Shown here: piece by piece, positions 2,009 through 32,915 of the stretch
How positions within the stretch are numbered: position 1 is the stretch's first letter
Layout: every line of letters starts with the position of its first letter
DNA from: an uncultured Roseiflexus sp.
GTDB lineage: Bacteria > Chloroflexota > Chloroflexia > Chloroflexales > Roseiflexaceae
Direction of reading: 5' to 3'
NCBI GenBank assembly: GCA_937935075.1
Contig: CALGYB010000113.1
Coordinates: forward strand, 1 to 37,300
Length of the DNA: 37,300 nt
The notes under the pieces: generated by a model
What the model was told of the DNA's origin: nothing
Databases searched by the model: none
The model's input: only the letters and a program-made list of their open reading frames with translations
Program-made: the position numbers and the translations under genes

Positions 2009-4756
2009 TCACGCATCGGGATCAATCAGTCCAAACCATCCTTTGCGAATCACCCACTTTGCCAGTTCCAACACCGGCGCCACGGTCGCTGCCAGCCCTG
2101 CAATGATCAGCCAGTCGGTCAGCGGCAGGGCATAGGTCCCAAAGGCATCGTGCAGGAACGGCAGATACACGATCAGCGAGAGCAATACCAGTTCCCAGAT
2201 GATTGCCAGGTTGAGCCATTTATTGGCAAATGGCTTATTCCACACCGAATTCCGGTCCGAACGGAAGTTATAGGCTTTGAAGAACTGGATCAACACCAGC
2301 GAAACGAACGTCATCGTCATTGCCTCTTCCAGACTACGCCCCGAATTCAGCGCCCATATGAAGAGCGCCAGGTTGACAATCGTCGACCAGACGCCGCCAA
2401 GCACCATGAGCGCGACCACCGGGCGAGTGAAAATGCCGATCCGGGGATTGCGCGGCTTGCGCTTCATCAGGTCGGCTTCCGGCGGGTCGACGGCCAGCGC
2501 CAGCGCGGGTAATCCGTCGGTCGCCAGGTTGACATACAGGATCTGCACTGCCGAGAGCGGCAGCGGCAGCCCCAGGAACGACGCACCCGCCATCAGCCCG
2601 ATCTCGCCGATGTTGGACGAGAGCAGATACATCAGGTATTTCTTGATATTGCTGAAGACGCCGCGCCCCTCTTCCACCGCCGCCACGATCGAGGCAAAAT
2701 TGTCGTCGGTCAGGGTCATCGCTGCGGCTTCTTTGGTCACATCGGCGCCGGTGATGCCCATTGCCACCCCAATATCGGCCCGCTTGAGCGCCGGCGCATC
2801 GTTGACGCCATCACCGGTCATGGCAACCACATGGCCGTTCGACTGCCAGGCAGTTACTACCCGCAGTTTATGGGACGGCGAAACACGCGCATAAACGCGG
2901 ATATCCTCAACTGCGCGCTTCAACTGCTCATCCGACATGGACTCCAGTTCCGCGCCGGTCACAACACGACCGCCGTTGAGCAGGTGCAACTCCCCCGCAA
3001 TTGCCTGCGCCGTCAAGGGATGGTCGCCGGTAATCATGACCGGGCGAATACCGGCTTCGATACATGTGGCGATTGCGTCTCTGGCTTCGGGGCGGGGCGG
3101 ATCGATCATTCCAACCAGGCCCAGGAAGGTCATACCGGTCTCTGCGTCATCCGGCGTTGCGCCTGGTTTGAACGCAATACCCAGCACCCGCATCGCCTGG
3201 CTCGCCATCTGCTGCGCCTGTAACAGGATCTGCTCGCGCCCGGCGTCATCCAGCAGGTGAATGCCATCGGCGGTAATCACCGTATCGCACCCTTCCAGAA
3301 TGACCTCCGGCGCACCTTTCGCATACGCGGTTACGCCATCCGCTCCCCGATGGAGCGTGGTCATGCGCTTGGTTTCGGACGAAAATGGGATTTCGTGGAT
3401 GCGCGGACTCTCAACATCGAGGGTCTCTTTCCACAATCCGGCTTTGGCAGCCGCGACCACGAGCGCGCCTTCGGTTGGATCGCCCTTGATGTCCCAACTG
3501 CCATCATCTTTCCGAATCAGGCGCGCATCCGACGCGAGAACCGCCGCTTTCAGGGTGAGCACGAGCGGCTCAGGCGGTGAAACCGGATGATCATCGAGAA
3601 GGAACTCGCCTGCGGGCGCGTACCCGGCGCCAGAGACGGCAAAGCATTTCCCGGCAGTGAAGACCTGGCGAACCGTCATTTCATCCTTTGTCAACGTGCC
3701 GGTTTTGTCGGTACAGATCACCGAGGTGCTGCCCAGTGTTTCAACCGCCGGCAGGCGACGGATGAGTGCGTGACGTTTTGCCATCTTCTGCACGCCTATC
3801 GCCAGCGAAATCGTGACGACGGCGGGCAAAGCCTCCGGTACGACCGCCACTGCCAGCGCAATGCCGAAGATCAGCATGTCGATGATCGGTTGCCCGCGCA
3901 GCAGCCCAAGCGCCACGATCAGCGCCACGACAACGAACGCTGCACGCGCCAGCACGCCGCCAACCCGGTCCAGGTTCTGCTGCAGCGGCGTGCGCACCGT
4001 CTCGACCGTCTGGAGCATTTGGGCGATTTTGCCGAACTCAGTGCGCATACCGGTGGCAACGATCAGCGCCTTTCCGCGCCCATACGTCGCCGACGTACCG
4101 GCATACACCATATTCTTGCGGTCTCCCAGCGGCAAATTGTCGCGCCCCAGCGGATGCGCGTGTTTCTCGACCGGAACCGACTCGCCGGTCAGTGCAGCCT
4201 CTTCGATTTGCAGGTTGATCGCTTCGATCAGCCGCGCATCCGCTGGAATACGGTCGCCGGTGTGGAGCAGAATGACATCGCCTGGAACCAGATCGCGCGC
4301 TGGAATGCGGATCTCCTGCCCATCACGCAGCACGGCTGCGGTTGGCGCCGCCATCTGCTGCAAGGCTTCGATAGCGCGCTCGGCGCGGTATTCCTGGATA
4401 AACCCAAGCAGCACCGCAAACAGCACAATAATGGCAATGACGATCGATTCAACGCCATGACCCAAAAAGAACGAAATCGCCGTTGCAATCAGCAGGATGA
4501 TAATCAGAACATTCTTGAACTGTTCGAGCAGAATCTCCCACGGTGAAATGCGCCGCGCCGCCTGAAGTTCGTTGGGACCGTACTGCTCCAGACGTTTGCG
4601 GGCTTCGTTGCTGCTCAATCCGTCGGGTGCGCTGCCGAGCAAGGCGAAAACCTCTTCAACAGCGTATGCATGCCAGCAGTGCTCCGGCGCTGTATCGCCA
4701 TGTGCCGGAGAAGACCCTGTCCGCTCGATATCCGGTTGTACAGTTGAAGGTTTCAT
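2009..4756 (-). CDS. P2A-type cation-transporting ATPase, riboswitch-controlled, probably Mn2+/Ca2+ efflux
   Basis: This 915-residue pump is of the SERCA/PMR1 group. It shows the actuator TGES (190-193), the phosphorylated Asp350 in DKTGT, KGAPE (480-484) and TGDGVNDAP (647-655). About ten membrane helices are present. Ligands matching both SERCA metal sites are seen: PEALP in M4 (307-311; SERCA has PEGLP), NIGE in M5 (715-718) and NLATDG in M6 (743-748). An upstream in-frame ATG (4783) exists, but the ATG at 4756 has GGGAG 8 bases ahead and lies after the leader terminator, so it is chosen. The yybP-ykoY riboswitch just upstream argues for Mn2+ export, since P-type ATPases under this motif (for example Lactococcus YoaB) protect from manganese. 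Ca2+ remains possible from the protein alone. Confidence 0.9.
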   Translation of the reverse strand: MKPSTVQPDIERTGSSPAHGDTAPEHCWHAYAVEEVFALLGSAPDGLSSNEARKRLEQYGPNELQAARRISPWEILLEQFKNVLIIILLIATAISFFLGHGVESIVIAIIVLFAVLLGFIQEYRAERAIEALQQMAAPTAAVLRDGQEIRIPARDLVPGDVILLHTGDRIPADARLIEAINLQIEEAALTGESVPVEKHAHPLGRDNLPLGDRKNMVYAGTSATYGRGKALIVATGMRTEFGKIAQMLQTVETVRTPLQQNLDRVGGVLARAAFVVVALIVALGLLRGQPIIDMLIFGIALAVAVVPEALPAVVTISLAIGVQKMAKRHALIRRLPAVETLGSTSVICTDKTGTLTKDEMTVRQVFTAGKCFAVSGAGYAPAGEFLLDDHPVSPPEPLVLTLKAAVLASDARLIRKDDGSWDIKGDPTEGALVVAAAKAGLWKETLDVESPRIHEIPFSSETKRMTTLHRGADGVTAYAKGAPEVILEGCDTVITADGIHLLDDAGREQILLQAQQMASQAMRVLGIAFKPGATPDDAETGMTFLGLVGMIDPPRPEARDAIATCIEAGIRPVMITGDHPLTAQAIAGELHLLNGGRVVTGAELESMSDEQLKRAVEDIRVYARVSPSHKLRVVTAWQSNGHVVAMTGDGVNDAPALKRADIGVAMGITGADVTKEAAAMTLTDDNFASIVAAVEEGRGVFSNIKKYLMYLLSSNIGEIGLMAGASFLGLPLPLSAVQILYVNLATDGLPALALAVDPPEADLMKRKPRNPRIGIFTRPVVALMVLGGVWSTIVNLALFIWALNSGRSLEEAMTMTFVSLVLIQFFKAYNFRSDRNSVWNKPFANKWLNLAIIWELVLLSLIVYLPFLHDAFGTYALPLTDWLIIAGLAATVAPVLELAKWVIRKGWFGLIDPDA

Positions 4757-4780
4757 GCGCCGTTCTCCCTTCTCCGCACA

Positions 4781-4817
4781 CAAACAAAAAGACCACCGCT
4801 CTTCAAGCGATGGTCTT
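4781..4817 (-). terminator. Intrinsic terminator in the ATPase leader (riboswitch expression platform)
   Basis: On the minus strand AAGACCATCGCT (4817-4806) pairs over 12 bp with AGCGGTGGTCTT (4800-4789) around a five-base loop, followed by a T-rich tail TTTTTGTTT. It lies between the aptamer and the start codon. Its 5' arm contains CCATC, which also closes the aptamer P1 helix. Confidence 0.85.
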
Positions 4818-4902
4818 GCGGTTTCGTTCAGACAGCCGGGAAATCTCTTTCCGTGATGACGGCCGCCCGACCCGGAAAATCCGGGTGCTACTCCCCATCT
4901 GT
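4806..4902 (-). promoter_or_regulatory. yybP-ykoY (manganese) riboswitch aptamer
   Basis: The minus-strand leader carries the hallmark GGGGAGTAGC near its 5' end (from about 4896). A short hairpin CCCGGATTTTCCGGG follows, then the second conserved loop CCGTCATCACGG and a 3' segment GAACGAAACCGCAAGACC, the order expected for yybP-ykoY. P1 forms from GATGG (4899-4895) and CCATC (4813-4809). The predicted transcription start, about 4902, is immediately before the aptamer. Established knowledge: this class binds Mn2+ and controls Mn exporters and P-type ATPases. Here ligand binding should stabilise P1 and block the terminator, giving an ON switch. Confidence 0.85.
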
Positions 4903-4908
4903 TGCTAG

Positions 4909-4937
4909 AGTATAGCGGGGAAGGCGCATCCCGTCAA
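4909..4937 (-). promoter_or_regulatory. Promoter of the riboswitch-ATPase transcript
   Basis: Minus-strand TTGACG (4937-4932), a 17-base spacer and TATACT (4914-4909) form a near-consensus sigma-70-type promoter placed directly upstream of the riboswitch. Confidence 0.75.
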
Positions 4938-8825: not shown

Positions 8826-9869
8826 TCAGAAAAGGATCTTTGCCAGGCGCAGCACGCCTTGTTTCCACGGGACGCGATGCGAGACGCCCGAAGCGCCTTC
8901 GAACTCCTGCAGATGTTCAATATACCAGCGATAGTTACGAACGAGCGCCTCTTTGTTCGAGTACTTCGGTGTGAAGCCGAGAACTCGTTCGGCTTTCTCG
9001 ATCGACACGAACGAGTCGGTGGCAGCGGTTTCGTACACCCACTTGTAGAGCGGCGAGAGGCGGAGCGCCTCCAGAACGCGCAACGTCCAGATCGCCGGCG
9101 CTGCGGGGAAGGGAATGATCTTCTTGCCGAAACCGGCAGCGTCCAGCACAGCCTGATAATCTTCGCGCATTGTCGTGAACTCTTTCGCGCCAATGTTGAA
9201 GGTGTCATTCACGCGATCCCGATCAAGCGTCGCACACAGGTAGATCGCTTCGCACAGGTCTTCGACATCGAGCAACTGATAGCGGTTATTACCGCTGCCG
9301 ATCATGGGGAAGTTCTTCCCGTCCTTTGCCCAATCATAGAGCAGCGCAAATACGCCAAGACGCTCTGGTCCGACGAATGATTTCGGGCGAATAATCGGCA
9401 CACACATCCCTTTGGCGCGATACTCCAGGCAGATCTGCTCAGCCTTCACCTTCGCCTCACCGTAGGGACCGACGCCGTGGAGCGGGTCGTCCTCGGAGAG
9501 CGGGTGATGATCAGGAATCCCGTAGACCGCCGTCGAAGAGATATGGATCACCCGATCGACGCCGTGCTCGAAGGCTGATTGCAGCACATTGCGCGTGCCG
9601 TCGAGGTCAGTGGAGAAGATGTCTTCTTTTTTATACAGTGGCAGCGCCGCCGCCGCATGCACAACGATCTGCACGCCCTCCATGGCGCGATCAACGCTCG
9701 AACGATCGCGGATATCGCCTTTGATTGCTTTGACCCGGTTCCGTTCCGGGTAGTTGAAGTCGGCAATATCAAGCGAGACGACGGGATGCCCACGCTCCAG
9801 CAGGTAGCGGATCAGATTAATGCCAAGAAAACCGGCGCCGCCGGTAATCAGAAAGGTAGATGCTGTCAT
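8826..9869 (-). CDS. NAD-dependent epimerase/dehydratase (extended SDR)
   Basis: A 347-residue extended short-chain dehydrogenase. It has the Rossmann signature GGAGFLG (10-16), the acidic Asp34 after strand two, GDIRD (51-55), SSTAVYG (111-117) and the catalytic Tyr136-x3-Lys140 in YGEAK. The carboxyl half ([30 protein letters not shown]) resembles NDP-sugar epimerases and 3-beta-hydroxysteroid-type enzymes. The substrate cannot be assigned. Its ATG overlaps the valS stop by ATGA, so it is translationally coupled to valS, and it precedes envelope genes. A role in nucleotide-sugar supply is only a guess. Confidence 0.87.
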
Positions 9870-12589
9870 GGGTGTAATCCTTGCTGCGCCAGGCGATCCT
9901 GCAGGCGAGCGATGGTTTCGCGAACGGCCGCCAGGCCGTCGCGTTCGCGTTGCACCACAGCCGCAGGCGCCTTGTCAACGAAACCAGGGGTGGACAGTCG
10001 CGCTTCGCGCCGCGCCGCTTCCGCCTGCGCCGCTTCCAGTTCTCTGAGCAGACGCGCGCGCTCGGCTTCCAGGTCAATCATACCGGCAAGCGGCAGATAG
10101 GTCTCGACCGCTCCGATCACGAGGGTTGCGGCGTTCGATGGCGTCTGATCGAGCGCTTCGATGATCGTCAATTGATTGGCATCGACACGCGCCAGACGCG
10201 CAATGATCGAACGTTGTGATTCGATCAGCGTCATCTGTGCGCCTGCCACGATCGTCGCCGCAATCAGGCGCGCCGGTTCGACTTTGTATTCGGTGCGGAT
10301 GTTGCGGATGCCGGTGATCAGCGCCTGGACGAGCGCCCAATCTCGCTCAACGCGCTCATCGATCTGCGTCGGGTCTGGTTGTGGATACGACGCGATCATA
10401 ATCGACACCGGAGCAGTGTCGGATCGGCGGTCGTCCACCAGATACTGCCAGGTTTCCTCGGTCACGAACGGCATAAACGGGTGCAATAGACGCAACGCGC
10501 CTTCCAACACCGTATAAAGCACGGCGCGCGTCGATGGCCTGAGCGATTCCTGCTCGAACTGCACTTTTGCGACTTCGACGTACCAGTCGGCGAATTCGCT
10601 CCAGAGGAAATCCTGGATGCCGCGCCCCGCCTCGCCGAAATTGTATGCCCGCATCAACCGATCCACATCCGCTGCCAGACGATGGTAGCGCGACAGGATC
10701 CAGCGGTCGGCGAGCGTCGCCGGTTGAGGATCGCTGATGGCCTGTGACCCGTTCGCGTCGTCTAGTTTCGAGAGCACGAAGCGGGCGATGTTCCACAATT
10801 TATTGGCGAAGTTGCGCGCCGACTCAATCCGCTCCGGATTGAGGTTCAGGTCCTGACCGGGCGAACTGCTGGTCGCCAGCGTGAAGCGCAGCGCATCGGC
10901 GCCATACTGGTCGATCACATCCAGCGGATTGACCACATTGCCATAGGTTTTCGACATCTTGCGTCCATCTTTGTCGCGCACCAGCCCGTGGAGGTAGACC
11001 GTATGGAAGGGCGTTTCGCCTGTCAGGTAGCACCCCATCATCATCATGCGCGCGACCCAGAAGAACAGGATGTCGTACCCTGTTTCCATAACGCTGGTAG
11101 GATAGAAGCGCCGCATATCCGGCGTATCGTCGGGCCAGCCAAGCGTCGAGAAGGGCCAGAGCGCACTGGAGAACCACGTATCGAGCACATCCGGGTCCTG
11201 AACCAGCCCTTCACCCTGTGGATCGGGATCGTCGGGACCGGGCACGATCATCTGGCCGTCGGGCGTGTACCACACGGGAATGCGATGACCCCACCAGAGC
11301 TGACGGCTGATGCACCAGTCCTGAATGTTTTCGAGCCAGTGGAAGAACACTTTCTCGAAGCGTTCCGGCACAATGCGGGTGCGTCCTTCGCGCACTGCTG
11401 CGAGCGCCAGATCAGCCAGCGGTTTGGCGCGCACGAACCACTGCTCGCTGAGAAGCGGCTCAACGACTTCGCCGCCGCGCTGACTGATCCCCACTGACAT
11501 ACGATGGGGACGCACCTCGACCAGCAACTCCTCGCGTTCCAGGTCATCGATCAGGCGCCGCCGCGCCTCGAAGCGATCCAGCCCGGCATACGGACCGGCT
11601 TCGGCGTTGAGGGTCGCATCGGCATTCATGATGTTGATCATCGGCAAATGGTGGCGCTGACCCACCAGATAGTCGTTCGGGTCATGCGCCGGCGTGATTT
11701 TCACCGCGCCGGTACCGAACTCCGGGTCGGCGTAGTCGTCGGCAATAATCGGTATCAGGCGGCCAATGGCCGGCAGCGCGACCATCCGCCCGATCAGATG
11801 TCGGTAGCGCGGATCGTCGGGGTTCACCGCCACTGCGGTATCACCCATGATTGTTTCCGGGCGCGTGGTGGCGACGGTGATAAACTCTGGGGCGCCGGCA
11901 GCCCACCGACCGCTGCCCCAGACGCCAGGACGCCAGTCATCGCTGGCGAGCGGATAGCGCACGTGATACATCGCCATGTCGCGCTCTTCATATTCCACCT
12001 CCAGATCGCTCACCGCAGTTTGCAGGTTGGGCGACCAGTTGACCAGGCGATAGCCGCGATAGATCAGGCCGTCGTCGTACAGCCGCTTGAAGGCGGCGCG
12101 CACCGCACGCGAGAGCATCGGGTCGAGCGTAAACCGCTCGCGCGTCCAGTCGCACGAGGCGCCGAGGCGACGCAACTGACGGGTGATTTCGCCGCCGTAC
12201 TTTTCTTTCCACTCCCAGGTGCGGCGCAGAAACTCCTCACGACCGATCTGCTGACGACTCGTCCCCTCGCTCTGGAGCAACCGTTCGACCTGCAATTGCG
12301 TGGCGATGCCGGCGTGATCGGTTCCGGGCAACCAGAGCGTCGGCTCGCCGAGCATCCGATGCCAGCGCACCATGACATCCTCAATCGTGACGAACATCGC
12401 GTGCCCCATGTGGAGTTCGCCGGTCACATTCGGCGGGGGCATTGAAACAACGAAGGGCGGACGGTCGGAAGTCTCGGGCGGCGTGAAGAAGCCGCTGCGC
12501 TCCCACCATTCGTAGAGGCGCTGCTCAACGCGCTGCGATTCGTAGGCTTTCGCCATTTCAGCCGGTCGCTGACTATCGGGCGTTTTCAT
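9866..12589 (-). CDS. valS: Valyl-tRNA synthetase
   Basis: This class I enzyme charges tRNA-Val with valine. It shows [13 protein letters not shown] with the HIGH-type HMGH at about 60-63 and KMSKT (from about 544) as the KMSKS loop. The CP1 editing domain ([18 protein letters not shown]) is present. The carboxyl end carries the coiled-coil tRNA arm (about 840-905, [20 protein letters not shown]). It has about 907 residues, normal for bacteria. An in-frame GTG at 12601 would add four residues. Neither start has a strong Shine-Dalgarno, and ATG 12589 is preferred. No T-box is seen in its ~100-base leader, unlike thrS in this window. Confidence 0.95.
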
Positions 12590-12678
12590 GGCAATGATCA
12601 CTTACCGCGTAGAGATGGCAAAAAAGTGCGCAGAGCGATCCGCCGTCATTGCGGTGCGCTGCTGCGACAGACAGTACG

Positions 12679-30182: not shown

Positions 30183-30211
30183 TTGACATACCGCACCTCG
30201 TCGTGTACCAT
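30183..30211 (+). promoter_or_regulatory. Promoter of the T-box/thrS transcript
   Basis: TTGACA (30183-30188), a 17-base spacer and TACCAT (30206-30211). Transcription should start near 30218, about 35 bases before the T-box Stem I. Confidence 0.7.
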
Positions 30212-30248
30212 AACAGGGCAGTACGCGAACAAATCGCTCACTATTGCG

Positions 30249-30508
30249 TTGACGAGGACGAGTAGCTGCGCAACGGCCTTCAGGGAGGGCGCGCCGATGA
30301 CTGTAAGCGCACCCGGTAACGGACGCAGCGAAAACCCCCTCCGAGCCGCCTCTTGAACGTCGCACCGACAAGTATGGGGGCGCGGGTCCGCCCGATAGCG
30401 CGGTCATGAGGGAATGCGCTGCCATCACGTGTGCTTCGGCAGCGCCGTTCTGAACATGGGTGGAACCACGAAGCAGCCCTTCGTCCCATGCGGGATGAGG
30501 GGTTTTTT
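30249..30508 (+). promoter_or_regulatory. Threonine T-box riboswitch leader
   Basis: Stem I starts with the typical GACGAGGACGAGTAG (30251-30265). GAGG (30254-30257) pairs with CCTC (30338-30341), and CTGCG (30266-30270) with CGCAG (30324-30328). Between them the 3' strand reads CGAAAACC, which places the specifier ACC (Thr) at 30334-30336. The T-box GGGTGGAACCACG (30458-30470) carries TGGA to pair with a UCCA tRNA end. The antiterminator forms from GGG plus ACGAAG with CTTCGT plus CCC, leaving the seven-base bulge TGGAACC. Uncharged tRNA-Thr should allow read-through into the downstream genes, including thrS. Confidence 0.9.
30477..30508 (+). terminator. T-box intrinsic terminator
   Basis: CCCTTCGTCCC (30477-30487) pairs with GGGATGAGGGG (30492-30502) over 11 bp (two G-U pairs), loop ATGC, then TTTTTT (30503-30508). 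It is mutually exclusive with the T-box antiterminator because CTTCGTCCC takes part in both. Confidence 0.88.
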
Positions 30509-30516
30509 ATTCGACT

Positions 30517-31110
30517 ATGACACGATCCTATCGACCTGTGCAGCGTCAGCCGAAGTCGCGCTCACGTCGCGGCATCGCCTGTCTGGGATGGATAACCGCG
30601 CTCATCTGGGTGTTTGTTGCGCTTGTTGCCGTCTACCTGTTCGTGCTGCGCCCATCGCTCAGCCGCATGGTCGGCGAACAGGCAGTGCAACGCCTGGGTG
30701 GTGATGAAACGCTGGATGGCGGAGGCCTGCTGCCGACGCTGGTCGCTGCGCTTCCCGCCGGCGAAATGCGCATCAATGAGCAGGAGATCAATGCCTACCT
30801 GCAGACGAATGCCGACTTGCTGGCGCCGATCGAGCAGGCGACGGTTCGCCTGGTCAGCGGCGGTCTGGAGGTCGATCTTCGCGCGTTTGGACTGAATGGA
30901 ACGGCGCGTATGGGTGTGGCGCTTCAAAATGGTCGCATCATCGCGCTTAATCCGCGTCTCGATGGACCGCTCGGTCGTCTGATCTCACCCGGTGATCTGC
31001 TGGCGCCGGTTGAGCAACGGCTGAACGAATTGCTGGAAGCGCAGGGGCGCCGGGTCACCGATCTGCGTATCGAACCCGGTGAAATGATCGTTACCGTGAC
31101 GGACACATAG
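30517..31110 (+). CDS. Single-helix membrane-anchored protein of unknown function in the thrS operon
   Basis: 197 residues. A basic amino end (about 1-20) leads into one membrane helix (about 24-46), then an outside domain of about 150 residues with alternating beta-like and amphipathic stretches (GEMRINEQEINAYLQ, GGLEVDLRAFGLNGTARM, GRRVTDLRIEPGEMIVTV). The shape recalls lipid-binding proteins such as DUF2993/LmeA, but I cannot assign it. The ATG is only 8 bases after the T-box terminator T-run; the nearest Shine-Dalgarno-like GAGGGG lies inside the terminator 3' arm. It stands between the T-box and thrS, so it is regulated by threonine charging too. Confidence 0.75.
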   Translation: MTRSYRPVQRQPKSRSRRGIACLGWITALIWVFVALVAVYLFVLRPSLSRMVGEQAVQRLGGDETLDGGGLLPTLVAALPAGEMRINEQEINAYLQTNADLLAPIEQATVRLVSGGLEVDLRAFGLNGTARMGVALQNGRIIALNPRLDGPLGRLISPGDLLAPVEQRLNELLEAQGRRVTDLRIEPGEMIVTVTDT

Positions 31111-31127
31111 AAGCGGCGAGGTTGTCT

Positions 31128-32915
31128 ATGCCGGTTAAGCCAGACACAGATCCCTACTATCGTTTACGCCATTCTGCTGCGCATGTAATGGCACAGGCCG
31201 TGCTCGAACTCTTTCCGGAAGGAAAAATCGCCATTGGACCGCCCATCGAGGACGGGTTCTACTACGATTTCGACCTGCCGCGCCCGTTGACGCCGGATGA
31301 TCTGGAGGAGATCGAACGGCGGATGCGCCGGATCATCGCCGGAAAGCATCCCTTCGTTTATCGCGTCGTCGATCCCGATGAGGCGCGCGCGTTGTTCCGC
31401 GACCAACCATACAAACTGGAGTTGATCGACGGACTGCTCCACGGCCAGGACGAGTATGGCGAACGGGGGAATGCGAGCACGGTCATTTCGACGTACAAAC
31501 ACGATACCTTCGAGGATCTCTGCCGTGGTCCGCATCTGGAACACACCGGACAGATCCCGCCGGATGCCTTCAAGTTGATGAGCGTGGCCGGCGCGTACTG
31601 GCGCGGCGACTCGAACCGTCCGATGCTCCAGCGGATCTACGGCACAGCGTGGAAGAGCAAAGAGGAACTCAACGCCTATCTGCATCGCCTCGAGGAAGCG
31701 AAGCGGCGCGACCACCGCCGAATCGGGAAAGAACTGGGACTGTTTTACTTCTCCGACGACATTGGCCCCGGTTTGCCGCTCTTTACGCCAAAGGGCGAGA
31801 TGTTACGGCATCTGATGGAGTCGTATGTGCGCGAGGTCCAGACGCGCTATGGGTATCAGCACGTCTGGACGGGGCATATCGTCAAGGAGACGCTGTACAA
31901 AAAGTCTGGACACTATGAGGCGTACCGCGAGAACATGTTCCCGCCCATGGTCGAGGATGAGGAGCATATCTACCGCCTGAAGCCGATGAACTGCCCCAGC
32001 CATATGACCCTCTATAAGGAGATGGGGATTCATTCGTATCGTGACCTGCCGTTGCGCTTCGCCGAGTTCGCAACCCTTTATCGCTATGAAGAGCGCGGGA
32101 CGCTGACCGGTCTGACGCGGGTGCGGGCGCTGACCCAGGATGACTGCCATATTTTCTGTCGTCCAGACCAGATCGAAGAAGAATTTGGGCTGGCGTTGCG
32201 TCTCATTCGCGAGGTGCTCGAGACATACCGGTTTACCAACTATCGGGTGCGTCTCTCGCTACGCGGCGAGGGTGGGAAGTACATTGCCGATGACGAGGCG
32301 TGGGACCTGGCGGAGAACGCGCTGCGCACCGCCCTCGATCACTACAACGTGCAGTACGAAGAAGCGCCGGGCGAGGCGGCGATTTACGGACCGAAAGCCG
32401 ATTTTTTGGCGCGCGATGTTCTGGGGCGCGAGTGGCAATTGTCAACCATCCAGGTGGATTTCATCCAACCGCGCCGCCTGGGTCTGGAATACATTGCGGA
32501 AGACGGTCAGCCGCGCACGCCGGTGGTGCTGCACCGCGCCGTGACCGGAACCACAGAGCGCTTTCTGGGGGTGCTGATCGAACATTACGGCGGCGCTTTT
32601 CCGCTCTGGCTGGCGCCGGTTCAGGCGGTCGTCATTCCCATTTCCGATGAACGGCACAGCGCGTATGCCGCCGAAGTCGGGCGACAGTTGACCGCAGCCG
32701 GATTGCGGGTCGATGTTGATACAAGCAGGGAGCGTATGCAGGCGAAGATTCGTCAGGCGCAGTTGCAGAAGATACCGTATATGCTTATAATCGGCGACAG
32801 GGAGCAGAGCGTCGGCGCCGTCGCGGTGCGCACCCGGTCGGGTGAAGACCTCGGCGCAATGCCGGTTGCGGCGTTCATTGCCCGCGCCCGGGCTGAGATC
32901 GAAGCAAAGGCGTAA
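31128..32915 (+). CDS. thrS: Threonyl-tRNA synthetase lacking the TGS domain
   Basis: A class II enzyme of 595 residues. The editing domain is intact: HSAAH (HxxxH, about 16-20) and DLCRGPH with the second Cys/His pair. The catalytic core shows KPMNCPSHM (zinc Cys), RYEERGTLTGLTRVRALTQDDCHIFC (motif 2 and zinc His) and VLHRAVTGTTERF (zinc His, motif 3). The anticodon-binding domain follows (APVQAVVIPISDE to the end). The usual amino-terminal TGS domain of about 60 residues is absent: the editing domain begins 15 residues from the start. ATG 31128 has GAGG 6 bases upstream. It is controlled by the threonine T-box at 30249-30508. Confidence 0.95.
   Translation: MPVKPDTDPYYRLRHSAAHVMAQAVLELFPEGKIAIGPPIEDGFYYDFDLPRPLTPDDLEEIERRMRRIIAGKHPFVYRVVDPDEARALFRDQPYKLELIDGLLHGQDEYGERGNASTVISTYKHDTFEDLCRGPHLEHTGQIPPDAFKLMSVAGAYWRGDSNRPMLQRIYGTAWKSKEELNAYLHRLEEAKRRDHRRIGKELGLFYFSDDIGPGLPLFTPKGEMLRHLMESYVREVQTRYGYQHVWTGHIVKETLYKKSGHYEAYRENMFPPMVEDEEHIYRLKPMNCPSHMTLYKEMGIHSYRDLPLRFAEFATLYRYEERGTLTGLTRVRALTQDDCHIFCRPDQIEEEFGLALRLIREVLETYRFTNYRVRLSLRGEGGKYIADDEAWDLAENALRTALDHYNVQYEEAPGEAAIYGPKADFLARDVLGREWQLSTIQVDFIQPRRLGLEYIAEDGQPRTPVVLHRAVTGTTERFLGVLIEHYGGAFPLWLAPVQAVVIPISDERHSAYAAEVGRQLTAAGLRVDVDTSRERMQAKIRQAQLQKIPYMLIIGDREQSVGAVAVRTRSGEDLGAMPVAAFIARARAEIEAKA

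Follow-up and report, generated by a model that had tools for sequence, protein, structure and literature searches.

The locus lies on the plus strand of the window, i.e. the whole 37,300-nucleotide stretch of DNA from an uncultured Roseiflexus sp. that was analysed, and comprises a promoter, a structured leader and two genes. A pattern scan identified a sigma-70-like promoter at 30183-30211 (TTGACA, a spacer of 17, TACCAT), which has 10 of 12 matches, with 0.2 such promoters expected in shuffled sequences, and which is located directly upstream of a T-box leader. The first gene of the operon (30517-31110) encodes a protein of 197 amino acids with an N-terminal hydrophobic stretch, which is LmeA-like according to a weak match to PF11209 (E 5.1e-05, 23.9 bits versus a cut-off of 27.3). 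It is followed by thrS (31128-32915), encoding threonine--tRNA ligase (TIGR00418, 677.5 bits), the start of which is best placed at the ATG at 31128, with GCGAGG in front of it, while the ORF list begins at the TTG at 31122. The original prediction had thrS downstream of the leader; the identity of the gene was confirmed, but the LmeA-like frame comes first behind the leader and thrS second, and the T-box core lies 664 bases before the thrS frame.

The leader at 30240-30491 was aligned by cmscan end to end with the T-box family RF00230 (model positions 1-219 of 219), with a score of 84.4 bits and E values of 1.2e-18 in a search of 1 kb and 4.5e-17 in a search of the whole window. The match covers Stem I, Stem II, Stem IIA/B, Stem III and the antiterminator. 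The S-turn sequence of Stem II and Stem III are both present in the alignment, the latter being recovered also as a folded hairpin at 30411-30451 (-19.4 kcal/mol, as good in 2 of 200 shuffles), and for the Stem IIA/B pseudoknot and the apical double T-loop the primary sequence is aligned as well. A default Rfam search of the leader with gathering scores lists nothing, because 84.4 bits is below the gathering score of 93 for RF00230. Thus, the covariance-model check of the original prediction yielded a strongly significant, full-length match, but one that stays under this value, which is the reporting cut-off of the Rfam curators and not a structural feature. Six T-boxes were found in this genome, only one of which is above the cut-off and five of which are below, and for the leader of the same thrS locus in the other five genus members RF00230 gives 95.7, 95.1, 92.7, 92.7 and 90.9 bits, the first two of which exceed 93. 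As no more than one of the six T-boxes of the genome passes, and the thrS leaders of the relatives score near or above the cut-off, the sub-gathering score is no argument against membership in the family; T-boxes of this G+C-rich phylum are missed at the Rfam gathering cut-off.

The specifier ACC (30334-30336), as placed by the RF00230 alignment, is a threonine codon and would read the anticodon GGU, and the UGGA at 30461-30464 would pair with a tRNA 3' end UCCA. The original prediction would have been refuted by a discriminator base other than U in tRNA-Thr of this genome. A search of the genome with RF00005 yielded 45 tRNA matches, all of which were taken as loci, and ARAGORN gave 44 distinct tRNAs. 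All three tRNA-Thr genes (GGU, UGU and CGU) encode UCCA ends according to ARAGORN, and therefore the UGGA of the leader can pair with tRNA-Thr. The discriminator U is found in just 6 of the 44 distinct tRNAs (three Thr, two Gly and one Cys). The discriminator bases of the tRNAs of the same genome thus provide an independent confirmation of a T-box that had been read by eye, and the proposed agreement of the specifier ACC and the T-box TGGA with the gene downstream was borne out by the UCCA ends of tRNA-Thr and by the TIGR00418 match of thrS.

Two alternative structures can be formed in the 3' part of the leader. The antiterminator (30455-30490) consists of CAUGGG, the UGGAACC bulge and ACGAAG, which pair with CUUCGU and CCCAUG, and its folding energy of -12.3 kcal/mol is moderate in that 10 of 200 shuffles are as good. 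The intrinsic terminator (30476-30508), identified by pattern scan and folding, has a 12-pair stem (30476-30503) and a run of six T (30503-30508), and none of 200 shuffles reached its folding energy of -22.1 kcal/mol (z -4.79). The antiterminator and the terminator stem overlap and are mutually exclusive; both pairings had been read by eye in the original prediction. A translational T-box that hides an SD motif was considered and rejected, because a terminator with a T run is present; a GAGG is found inside the 3' arm of the terminator, which is too far away for an ordinary SD motif since it lies at least 14 bases before the first ATG. When the whole leader of 291 nt was folded as one piece it was not unusually stable, and its folding energy (z -1.35) was discarded as uninformative; Stem I folded alone also lacked unusual stability (z 0.11). 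Since overall folding energy is thus unexceptional, the identification is based on the fit to the covariance model, on conservation in relatives and on the matching tRNA. The parts of the leader, its pairing options, its match to the tRNA and its conservation are direct observations.

Two other readings of these elements have to be considered. The run GAAAACCCCC contains the triplets AAC and CCC in addition to ACC, and thus the T-box might be read in another frame as specific for asparagine or proline. However, tRNA-Asn ends with GCCA (discriminator G) and the three tRNA-Pro end with ACCA (discriminator A), neither of which pairs with UGGA, ACC is invariant in the six leaders of the genus whereas the next base changes, the bases flanking ACC on both sides vary among relatives, and the downstream gene is thrS. 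Of the three possible frames, ACC alone agrees with the discriminator base as well as with the synthetase encoded downstream, and the probability of an Asn or Pro frame is close to nil. The strong terminator would also be expected if the region contained a plain intrinsic terminator or a peptide attenuator that senses no tRNA, yet the covariance model was matched over its entire length, a promoter is located directly upstream, and the 3' end and the anticodon of the tRNA both fit the amino acid of the downstream gene, so that this explanation, too, can be virtually dismissed.

The leader at 30240-30491 is almost certainly a full-length transcriptional T-box riboswitch that is specific for tRNA-Thr(GGU), and the complete threonine T-box originally proposed at 30249-30508 is upheld by the full-length RF00230 match, the discriminator of tRNA-Thr and the agreement of the relatives. 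Against it stand the score under the gathering value, the unremarkable overall folding energy, the C behind the specifier, the distance and the additional gene between the T-box core and thrS, and ten thrS loci of the order, described below, in which no T-box core was seen. By analogy with the known family, it would bind tRNA, allow read-through and mediate regulation in the cell. RNA polymerase would start a few bases past 30211 and produce the leader, and the specifier ACC in Stem I would read the anticodon GGU. An uncharged tRNA, once bound, would pair through its UCCA end with the UGGA of the bulge, the antiterminator would be held, and transcription would continue through the LmeA-like gene into thrS. 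With threonine on the tRNA, the bulge would be unable to accept the 3' end, the downstream half of the antiterminator would become part of the terminator, and transcription would end in the T run. As uncharged tRNA would let transcription run on, it is proposed that the level of ThrRS is raised when threonyl-tRNA is low.

The promoter hexamers, the GCGTTGACGAGGACGAGTA start of Stem I, ACC, the UGGAACC core and the arms of the antiterminator and the terminator are kept in all six members of the genus, while the loops and Stem III vary in sequence. The original prediction had drawn attention to a C following the specifier instead of the usual purine. The C at 30337 is real, but it is a common variant and not special to this leader: the six members of the genus have C, G, C, T, A and A at this position, and the 44 thrS leaders counted comprise 23 with A, 16 with C, 3 with G and 2 with T, i.e. 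18 with a pyrimidine. This count leaves out four of 48 leaders (L055, L058, L063 and L073), in which the position of the specifier was uncertain, and it was made with a pattern which requires ACC and cannot itself prove it, a fault of which the alignment of the six genomes is free. For other specificities in Chloroflexota, 12 of 13 Ile leaders have A at this position and 7 of 7 Phe leaders have C, as derived from a survey of 58 loci, 8 of which had no specifier candidate, with frames chosen by eye. The C at 30337 and the score under the gathering value might also be regarded as signs of decay, i.e. of a family-like relic that no longer binds tRNA. Nevertheless, all six genus members retain the specifier, the bulge, both antiterminator helices and the terminator, the same locus exceeds the gathering score in two of the six, and the frequency of pyrimidines given above likewise speaks against decay, which is thus very improbable.

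For the analysis of wider conservation, thrS loci were placed by tblastn, and both T-box cores and LmeA-like frames were counted. Of 60 genomes of the order that were searched, 59 had a match, and the best 30 thrS loci were used. Among these best 30, 28 have an LmeA-like frame upstream and 20 have a T-box core; in each of the 20 T-box-positive loci the order is T-box, LmeA-like gene, thrS. A T-box core upstream of thrS is absent in 10 of the 30 within the available sequence, which in one case extends just 649 bases upstream. The 80 further loci from genome_contigs, many of which are outside the phylum or have incomplete sequence, contain a T-box core in 28 cases, an LmeA-like frame in 3 and both together in 2. 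In total, 48 of the 110 loci have a T-box core before thrS (20 of 30 in the order and 28 of 80 in genome_contigs), a tally from which L105 was left out as a chance core match. These counts indicate that thrS T-boxes are widespread in Chloroflexota, while the additional LmeA-like gene is largely specific to the order. The antiterminator helices A1 and A2, with at least three pairs each, were recovered by a script in 47 of the 48 thrS leaders (L052 failed the pattern), and in those leaders a hairpin follows behind the antiterminator that has 5 to 17 pairs, the shortest of which mean little.

The LmeA-like, membrane-anchored protein (30517-31110) is kept between the T-box and thrS in Chloroflexales. 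According to a review (PMC7583486), a purine is usual after the specifier and is put down to stacking, and mutational work is cited against a pairing with U33. It is a doubtful and at best tentative suggestion that in Chloroflexota the identity of the tRNA determines the post-specifier base, which would then not be a general purine, and that the LmeA-like protein is under threonyl-tRNA control across Chloroflexales. If the former were true, the stacking purine of known T-box structures would be dispensable for some specifiers. If the latter were true, an envelope protein would be tied to the threonine supply. The natural variation at this position inside one genus provides leaders with which the purine rule could be tested.

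The original prediction had counted two RNA regulators within 26 kb, the second of which could not be established. A Rfam search of the whole window revealed no family besides RF00230 that reaches an E value of 0.8, and a search of a short region gave just a weak match to RF00080 (manganese riboswitch) at 4783-4909 on the minus strand, with 14.5 bits versus a gathering score of 45. This candidate manganese (yybP-ykoY) riboswitch contains GGGGAGUAG and a terminator-like hairpin, and it precedes the gene of a P-type cation ATPase (2009-4783, minus strand). A manganese riboswitch before the ATPase gene is possible, but it is not claimed here because the RF00080 score is too low, though the gene would suit. 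The window also contains a valyl-type class I tRNA synthetase (9866-12601, minus strand), near which the Rfam search gave no T-box match.

Other T-boxes of this genome likewise agree with the genes behind them: an Ile T-box precedes a class I (I/L/M/V) synthetase, a Phe T-box precedes PheS, and a Gly T-box precedes a synthetase of class II (G/H/P/S/T). A T-box that contains TGGC and can be read as Ser (UCC) precedes two NUDIX-domain frames (L005, L213; G000:C169), and the next frame downstream (424 amino acids, L213:2232-3503, minus strand) presumably encodes SerRS, which it resembles; as with thrS, other genes are located between the T-box and the synthetase. The sixth T-box-like leader of the genome (L006:1501-1729, corresponding to G000:C100:6650-6878; 54.4 bits) precedes a MerR-GAF regulator and not a synthetase. 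Its core and its Stem I frame are kept in seven genomes (L006, L215-L220), the specifier loop has no conserved triplet, and the final hairpin has no T run. Codon reading may have been lost in this T-box, or its codon may differ from species to species.

T-boxes are nearly universal in Chloroflexota, as 275 of 301 genomes contain at least one RF00230 match with an E value of 0.001 or lower, and 164 contain a match above the cut-off. The view of the window as an opening for riboregulation outside Firmicutes is not new: the consulted portions of the published reports describe Chloroflexi T-boxes for ileS, trpE and a trpB-like gene of Dehalococcoides in 2008 (PMC2494555) and T-boxes in Chloroflexi again in 2013 (PMC3766115), and in these portions the thrS T-box of the present genus is not named. 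With T-boxes being common in the phylum, the thrS leader is ordinary in kind, sound and unsurprising.

It has the RNA class and the phylum in common with the Chloroflexi T-boxes that are covered by the consulted portion of PMC2494555. In comparison with the canonical T-box of RF00230, it shares Stem I with the AGUA motif and the specifier, Stem II with GAAC/AAGUA, the CGG..CCG element, Stem III, the UGGN bulge, the overlap of antiterminator and terminator, and the location in a synthetase operon, whereas it differs in its score of 84.4 bits versus the gathering score of 93, in its G+C content of 64%, and in the C, instead of a purine, that follows the specifier.
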